In this document: positions 41,807 to 45,097 of the stretch, piece by piece
Layout: each line of letters starts with the position of its first letter
How positions within the stretch are numbered: position 1 is the first letter of the stretch
Origin: Urbifossiella limnaea
Lineage (GTDB): Bacteria; Planctomycetota; Planctomycetia; Gemmatales; Gemmataceae
Direction: 5' to 3'
Assembly (NCBI RefSeq): GCF_007747215.1
Contig: NZ_CP036273.1
Span: 1,410,322-1,474,321, forward strand
Length of the DNA stretch: 64,000 nucleotides
Made by a program: the position numbers and the translations under genes
Notes under the pieces: generated by a model
What the model saw: only the letters and a program-made list of their open reading frames with translations
Database searches by the model: none
What the model was told of the DNA's origin: nothing

Positions 41807-43309
<1,503 letters not shown>

Positions 43310-43340
43310 GCTGGTCCCCGCGGGCGGAAGGCGGGGTCGG

Positions 43341-43380
43341 CCCGCCGTACCGGGTCCATCCTATGACCCGGTACGGCGGG
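43341..43380. terminator. 16-bp hairpin after the selenoprotein gene
   Basis: Perfect 16-bp arms (43341-43356 and 43365-43380) with an 8-nt loop, 8 nt after the stop of the Trx/PDZ gene. Confidence 0.7.
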
Positions 43381-43388
43381 GCGGGCCG

Positions 43389-44594
43389 TCAGTTCGACAG
43401 CATCAGTTTCACCTCGGCCCTGCGGCCGGCGCGGATCACGTCCACGGTCACGGTGTCGCCGACCAGGAAGTTGCGGCGCAGGTACCCCAACAAATCGCCG
43501 GTCGTGCCGTCGAGGGGGACGCCGTTGAACCCCACCACCACGTCGCCGGTGCGGAACCCGGCCTTCGCCAGCGACGGGTGGAGGTTGTCGCCGATCTGGA
43601 ACGCCGCCCGCGCGGCGGTCAGCCCGAGCCTCCGGCGGTCGTCGGCCGTGAGGTCGTCGCCGGCGAACGGGGCCGACGGCAGGATGTCGAGCAGCGACGG
43701 CCGCCACGTGATGTTCGTCTTCCGCCACCCGTCGGCGAGTTCCAGCGCCCCGGTCCGTTCCTTCCCCGCCTGCGACCACACGACGGGGATCGTCCCCTTC
43801 GCGGGCGCCTTGTGCAGCGCGTAGGAGGCGTCCGCGAACGACGCCACCGGCACGCCGTTCAGGCGCCGCAGCACGTCGCCCGGCTTGATGCCGACCTTGT
43901 CCGCCGGCGAGCACGCGGCGACGGCCTTCACCCGGTCGCCGGCGTCGAGATCGACGACGACGCCCACGTTGTCCGGCGGCGGGTAGGCCCACACGCTGGC
44001 GCGGTCCCAGTTCCCAATGGCCTTCGCGTCCGCCCGGCGGAACTCGTTGACGTTGTGGCAGTGGATACACCCCTTGTGCCGCTTGGCGGCGGGGATGTCC
44101 TCGGGGCGCAGCGGCGGGTCGGCCCGCTTCGCCGGCGGGGGCGCGGCCTGGTGCGCCTCCAGCGCCCGGCCCATGGCGTACCGAAGCCCCTTCAGGCTGA
44201 TGCGGCTCTGGTCGCCGCGCGCGTCGCGGCCGCCGTACCGGCCGTAGACCGTCTCGTCCGCGTTCAGGAAGAACACGTACCACGTCACGTCGTAGTCGAA
44301 GTCGAAGACGCGGAGGTCCATGCCGGCGATTTGCACGAGCCGGACCCGGACGAACCGGTCGGCGATGTCGGAAATGTCCTTGTGGAGACGGACAACCTGC
44401 CCGTCGACTTCGGCGCAGTCGAGTCAGGGGTTGCAGCGGAACACGAGCATCATCGGCTTGCCGGTCCGCCGCGCCTCGGCCTTGGCGGCGGCGTAGTCGG
44501 TGTGCCACCCGTGCTGCTTCGGGTCGACGTTCTGGGCGGCCGCGGCGGCCGGCAGGAGCACGGCCGCCGCGACGGCGGCGAGGGCGGATCGCAT
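43389..44594 (-). CDS. Trx/PDZ-domain protein with in-frame UGA (probable selenoprotein)
   Basis: 401 residues if UGA at 44426-44424 is read as selenocysteine. Signal peptide (LAAVAAAVLLPAAAAAQ), then a thioredoxin-like domain with KPMMLVFRCNP-U-LDC: C54-x-x-U57, a CxxU redox motif. Next come the conserved MDLRVFDFDYDVTWYVFF and a CIHCH motif (176-180) that could hold heme c. Two PDZ domains end the protein (GIKPGDVLRRLNGVPV; GFRTGDVVVGFNGVPLDG). The frame is intact on both sides of the UGA. From memory, a planctomycete family named Trx7/PDZ (seleno)protein has this layout. A SECIS-like hairpin follows the UGA. A conventional caller would start at 44336 and lose the redox site. Confidence 0.85.
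44387..44405 (-). promoter_or_regulatory. SECIS-like hairpin
   Basis: The RNA GACGGGCAGGUUGUCCGUC folds into a 7-bp stem (one G-U pair) with loop AGGUU. The GGU lies 27-29 nt after the UGA. Bacterial SECIS elements place a G-containing apical loop about 16-37 nt after the UGA, so position and loop fit. It overlaps coding sequence, as bacterial SECIS elements do. Confidence 0.65.
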
Positions 44595-44621
44595 AGCTGG
44601 GCTCCGGCGGACTTGGGTGGG

Positions 44622-44999
44622 TTACTTCTTCGGCGGGGCGCCCGACTTCAGCACCTCGATCTTCTCGACGCGCGGCCGCTCCTCGAACGTCCACTCCAGC
44701 CGGACCCGGCTCTTCAGCGGAATTTCCTTGAGCCGGGCGACCATCGCCTTGTCCGGGCCGCCGCCGGCGGCCGGGGCGCCGCCGCGCCAGTGCGGCACGT
44801 ACTTCCGGGCCTTCTCCTCGCCGTCGGCCTTCACCTCGATCCAGGCCTCACCCTTGCCGGTCACCTCGCCGGTGACCGTGCCCTTGCGGGCCTCTTCCTT
44901 CTTCTCTTCCTTCTTGTCCTGGCCGGCGGCCGGGGCGCGGCCGACGGCCACGACGAAACCGACGGCGAGGACGGCGACGAACAGGCGGCGGAGGAGCAT
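44622..44999 (-). CDS. Small secreted protein upstream of the selenoprotein
   Basis: A 125-residue exported protein with a signal peptide (LFVAVLAVGFVVAVGRAPAA), a Lys/Glu-rich stretch (KKEEKKEEARKG), then a small beta-rich domain (TVTGEVTGKGEAWIEVKADG, ARKYVPHWRGG, RVRLEWTFEERPRVEKIEVL) resembling an OB-type fold. It ends 27 bp before the selenoprotein ATG on the same strand, so the two are probably cotranscribed. Function unknown. Confidence 0.65.
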   Translation of the reverse strand: MLLRRLFVAVLAVGFVVAVGRAPAAGQDKKEEKKEEARKGTVTGEVTGKGEAWIEVKADGEEKARKYVPHWRGGAPAAGGGPDKAMVARLKEIPLKSRVRLEWTFEERPRVEKIEVLKSGAPPKK

Positions 45000-45097
45000 G
45001 AGAGGGTTCCTTGTCGGGAACAGGTGTCGGCCCGGGATGGCCGGCAGGTGGGACACGACGAGTATAGCCGCCGGCGGCCCGGCCCACGAGTGGTTTG

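Follow-up and report, generated by a model that had tools for sequence, protein, structure and literature searches.

A minus-strand gene in the Urbifossiella limnaea DNA analysed here (a stretch of 64,000 nucleotides, hereafter the window) very probably encodes an exported thiol/selenol-disulphide oxidoreductase of the trx7_PDZ_seleno family (NF041199), with an in-frame UGA decoded as selenocysteine at residue 57 (Sec57). Sequence comparison shows this UGA (44426-44424) to be conserved in the way that a catalytic cysteine is. Standard annotation would split such a gene, leaving a 56-residue stub and a 315-amino acid fragment devoid of the active site. The gene and its parts are as follows:

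43389..44594, minus strand: trx7_PDZ_seleno gene, NF041199 member, with a signal-peptide-like N-terminus (translation, NF041199, Pfam and AlphaFold model)
44433..44435, minus strand: Cys54, first CxxU position, occupied by a second UGA in 75 relatives (UxxU)
44424..44426, minus strand: Sec-UGA codon, residue 57, second CxxU position (UGA or Cys in 238/238 relatives)
44415..44417, minus strand: Cys60, third cysteine of the redox motif (CxxUxxC), kept in most members
44387..44405, minus strand: bacterial SECIS hairpin, 7-bp stem and AGGUU loop (covariation, synonymous recoding and bacterial SECIS criteria)
44057..44071, minus strand: CIHCH motif (CxxCH), approximate place, in the region of residues 175-180; possible haem-c site by motif

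Translation of the frame from 44594 to 43389 with readthrough gives 401 residues and bears out the description in the first-pass annotation: a lone in-frame TGA lies in the context VFRC-NP-U-LDC, at the redox position C54-x-x-U57, and is followed by 344 open codons without further interruption before the frame ends in another TGA (43391-43389). The domains that had been reported as intact around the TGA are likewise found, with a Pfam Thioredoxin_7 match (residues 30-111, 47.5 bits) running across it, two PDZ domains and the CxxCH motif. In an AlphaFold (AF2) model built with input from 31 relatives (mean pLDDT 94.9), residues 1-125 resemble the DsbD-like thioredoxin domain 3f9u (Z 14.1 over 114 residues) and the remainder comprises a helical stretch bearing CxxCH and a pair of PDZ domains resembling those of DegQ/DegP. 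First and second codon positions are less diverged than third positions on both sides of the UGA in four of five relatives; in the fifth, L022, the stretch before the UGA shows no excess of third- over first-position divergence. The CxxCH motif is invariant across the family (238/238) and may bind haem or a metal; the Pfam matches of the window protein include no cytochrome c family.

The list of open reading frames does contain a 315-amino acid frame starting from GTG at 44336 (43389-44336), and the locus could on that basis be read as two genes, one whose short secreted product stops at the TGA and one for a PDZ protein. Homology, the Thioredoxin_7 match and the fold all cross the TGA, however, and the second piece would have neither a signal peptide nor a redox motif, so that we give this arrangement hardly any credence.

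The full-length protein scores 439.3 bits against the NCBIfam model NF041199 (trx7_PDZ_seleno; cut-off 300) and has the arrangement that marks membership, a CxxU or CxxC motif within Thioredoxin_7 followed by PDZ. The Trx/PDZ selenoprotein family that the first-pass annotation had referred to does exist, and is tabulated in a 2026 review (PMC13188914) as Trx7/PDZ domain-containing (seleno)protein, CxxU, with one Sec. A 2022 paper has the entry 'PDZ domain-containing protein, pfam13899, CxxU' (PMC9312934) and the 2008 GOS study a 'putative secreted serine protease MucD', also CxxU (PMC2398784); going by the descriptions in these papers, the latter is probably the earliest sighting of the family. 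As NF041199 is already catalogued, the window gene adds a member to a known family, and by sequence it is a new member of a group that itself so far consists of predicted selenoproteins. Domains, the CxxU motif and the position of that motif are identical, and there is no essential difference between the window gene and the catalogued family. Identity with the protease MucD/HtrA/DegP was considered and rejected: there is no trypsin-like protease domain, only the PDZ parts match, and in profile comparison of the window protein the DegP model gave 50.9 bits versus 416. The structural neighbours of model residues 1-125, namely DsbD C-terminal-like/Thioredoxin_7 proteins (PDB 3f9u), ERp19 and AGR2/3, share the thioredoxin fold (Z 10.7-14.1) but, judged by titles and lengths, these chains lack Sec, PDZ and the CxxCH domain.

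Homologues were sought in 95 Gemmataceae genomes and 76 loci were read. An in-frame TGA is present in 58 of these, without exception at the column of residue 57 and usually within FRC-x-P-U-x-D-C; the other 18 are paralogues with Cys in place of the UGA. One such Cys-type paralogue (CxxCxxC; C1:331440-332726, L047) lies in the same genome as the window gene and has no SECIS hairpin, whilst four other genomes (G061, G066, G033 and G374) carry three or four UGA-bearing copies each, a marked expansion of trx7_PDZ_seleno genes. Enlarging the set to 238 distinct sequences, from Gemmataceae, the rest of the phylum and a few others, gave 103 CxxU, 75 UxxU and 60 CxxC proteins, that is one-Sec, two-Sec and no-Sec members, and makes the family a natural experiment. 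Position 54 is Cys or UGA with no other residue seen, and in the residue-57 alignment proposed by the first-pass annotation every sequence has UGA (178, from many genera) or Cys (60).

The evidence for a SECIS element is of several kinds. The stem-loop that the first-pass annotation had described, a 7-bp stem with an AGGUU loop 19-37 nt past the UGA, was confirmed at 44405-44387 (GACGGGC-AGGUU-GUCCGUC, -10.5 kcal/mol). Published criteria for bacterial SECIS elements specify a loop of 3-9 nt, a stem of 4-16 bp and a spacing of 16-37 nt, together with a G in the first two loop positions and a minimum free energy of -7.5 kcal/mol or below (PMC13188914); the window hairpin, with its 5-nt AGGUU loop, 7-bp stem, energy of -10.5 kcal/mol and 25 nt from UGA to loop, falls within all of these. 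A search of window positions 43300-44700 returned no Rfam family above threshold, and Rfam is therefore no help with this element.

Numbering from the T of the UGA as 0, the stem pairs positions 21-27 with 33-39. Across 54 Gemmataceae sequences 95.8% of cells are paired, with 23 double changes, a level reached in none of 500 shuffles, and sliding the register by one to three columns lowers pairing to 31-62%. Pair 25-35 is standard in 57/57 sequences and occurs as GC, AT, CG and GT. Its partners are a second codon position and, three codons on, the wobble position of a Val/Ala codon; with four pair types and no exception among the 57, it is hard to account for by protein constraint. Measured against synonymous recoding, the hairpin has a mean z of -2.79 in CxxU and -2.78 in UxxU genes versus -0.24 in CxxC genes; it is not conserved in the Cys forms. 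In the window gene itself the value is -11.7 kcal/mol versus -5.5 for synonymous recodings of the same residues (z -3.7). For the wider region 12-51 the synonymous signal is weaker than for the hairpin alone, probably because GC-rich synonymous recodings fold in other ways.

An otherwise normal frame broken by a single TGA, in a family with Cys-type paralogues (that at C1:331440 included), is also what a sequencing error, an assembly slip or a nonsense mutation newly arisen in a Cys-type gene would leave behind. This reading is refuted by the conserved UGA column, the same codon being shared by 178 distinct sequences across many genera, and neither the confinement of hairpin conservation to UGA forms nor the 344 intact codons past the UGA fits a pseudogene; we regard it as wholly implausible.

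The machinery for selenocysteine insertion, which the first-pass annotation had suggested looking for, is complete in the host genome (one contig of 7.8 Mb): all four components were found, namely tRNA-Sec with anticodon tca (UCA) at C1:161043-161136 (78 bits), SelB at C1:2734446 (329 bits, or 370 counting a neighbouring match in the same frame), SelA at C1:3820659 (542.6 bits) and SelD at C1:7318234 (384 bits). The SelD match (C1:7318234-7319157, L098 in genome G000) sits inside a 649-amino acid open frame, double the normal length, probably a case of the Ndh-SelD fusion that PMC2398784 reports. Amongst the Gemmataceae, SelB is present in 82 and tRNA-Sec in 76 of the 95 genomes. Of the 46 genomes with a UGA form, 43 have SelB or tRNA-Sec; the other three are 59-75% complete, and the absence is probably a matter of missing sequence. 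Those genomes at least 88% complete that have neither SelB nor tRNA-Sec (G050, G068, G083 and G094) carry Cys forms only, or no family member.

An open frame by itself is silent on which residue is inserted, and readthrough of the UGA might yield Trp or some other amino acid, or TGA might be reassigned, with no selenium involved. Yet the selenoprotein frame itself terminates in TGA, the alternative at column 57 is always Cys and never Trp, and a covarying SECIS is accompanied by SelA, SelB, SelD and tRNA-Sec, all of which makes such a reading very improbable. The first-pass proposal of a selenocysteine codon in an exported redox protein is instead supported by column 57, the SECIS and the Sec machinery, and at the level of sequence the window UGA almost certainly inserts selenocysteine into such a protein. 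Of the outcomes that the first-pass annotation had named as refuting it, neither a lack of selA, selB or tRNA-Sec nor homologues devoid of Cys/U at this position was observed. On the model of the established pathway, the AGGUU loop would be bound by SelB together with Sec-tRNA(Sec), and the UGA would be decoded as Sec57. Motifs and fold suggest that Cys54 and Sec57 would form a selenylsulphide redox centre on the DsbD-C-terminal-like thioredoxin domain; Cys60 may assist in resolution of the selenylsulphide and the two PDZ domains may hold a substrate or partner.

The review lists the family with one Sec and CxxU only (PMC13188914), whereas 75 of the 238 members here are UxxU, with two UGAs 9 nt apart. 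The phylum search returned many members with two in-frame TGAs, and of 40 two- or three-TGA loci that were read every one has FRU-x-x-U or LRU-x-x-U. UxxU members include metagenome-assembled genomes (MAGs) labelled Planctomycetota, Poribacteria and Actinomycetota. UxxU selenoproteins elsewhere (Prx-like thiol:disulphide oxidoreductase, putative mercuric reductase and FmdB; PMC13188914) likewise have two Sec three positions apart but belong to families other than trx7_PDZ_seleno. The family opens the question of how bacteria decode two UGAs within one ribosome footprint. With the residue-57 UGA as reference, the SECIS lies at the same position in CxxU and UxxU forms; the distance to the SECIS loop is 25 nt from the second UGA (UGA2) and 34 nt, toward the top of the published range, from the first (UGA1).

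A further hairpin, here called HP1, occupies offsets 3-20 in UxxU genes, after UGA2 and ahead of the SECIS; AAGGAC-UGCAA-GUCCUU is one instance. Its mean energy is -5.39 versus -2.44 kcal/mol for synonymous recodings in UxxU genes, the same test of this region giving -1.67 versus -1.56 in CxxU and -1.64 versus -1.26 in CxxC genes. Swapping 3' halves among UxxU genes abolishes HP1, the energy going from -5.47 to -2.27 (sd 0.20), and has little effect in CxxU genes. Pairing is 60% in UxxU genes, with double changes in five of six pairs, and 33% in the mostly-CxxU Gemmataceae alignment; HP1 stems vary in register, so that such fixed-register counts are too low. The window gene, with its one UGA, has a hairpin in this region at chance level only (z -0.7). 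The UxxU loci are L030, L085, L086, L090, L112, L127, L133, L156, L157, L167, L170, L173, part of L182-L250, and L275-L293, the majority with the extra covarying hairpin. One of them, L086 (genome G049), has lost two codons after UGA2; its SECIS stem lies 6 nt nearer as a unit and HP1 is absent.

Does HP1 track the second UGA beyond kinship? When the active-site and SECIS columns are removed before tree building, U at position 54 changes at least 25 times, and the one-Sec and two-Sec states interchange some 25 times. An initial phylogenetic pair test, limited to 8 pairs, did not reach significance (median p 0.125), and loci were added afterwards. Among 16 independent pairs separated by supported branches, HP1 changed in step with the second UGA in 12.5 and against it in 0.8 (median p 0.002), as against 2.9 versus 3.8 for a downstream control stretch; a FastTree version gave 9.8 versus 1.0 in 14 pairs, all these figures coming from quick trees of mostly MAG sequences. 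The HP1 pattern was first spotted by eye, and for that reason the 59 loci obtained afterwards were used as a check: HP1 at or below -3 kcal/mol, a threshold of our own choosing with which several others agree, is found in 17/19 UxxU versus 3/24 CxxU genes (Fisher p 4e-7).

On balance we favour the view that the second Sec codon and HP1 are gained and lost together, with HP1 perhaps acting on behalf of UGA1, whether by bringing the shared SECIS loop closer to that codon or as a second SECIS. While UGA1 occupies the A site, HP1 would sit right at the entrance of the ribosome, where it could fold and draw the SECIS nearer; once UGA2 has taken that place, HP1 would be melted, leaving the SECIS to act alone. 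Alternatively, HP1 might itself be a second SECIS, its loop about 15-16 nt from UGA1. Judged as a classical SECIS, HP1 has two shortcomings: its loop is without the GGU found in the SECIS loop and, at -5.4, its mean energy misses the -7.5 criterion. No description of an extra hairpin accompanying a second UGA was found in the selenoprotein literature searched, and its presence makes the two-UGA decoding question directly testable. If HP1 does serve the upstream UGA, the arrangement would amount to a modular two-hairpin rule for the insertion of two closely spaced Sec in bacteria, with the window gene representing the one-Sec state.

As to the neighbours of the selenoprotein gene, a conserved link to zwf (41807-43309, downstream) was considered and rejected, zwf being beside the gene in no relative within the flanks examined. 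Directly upstream lies a further gene:

44622..45056, minus strand: secreted protein of ~144 amino acids, with a homologue in this place in 24 of the 30 nearest loci

This protein has no Pfam match and is a candidate partner of the selenoprotein. Its homologue sometimes appears as two tandem matches (L018, L019, L023, L029 and L030).
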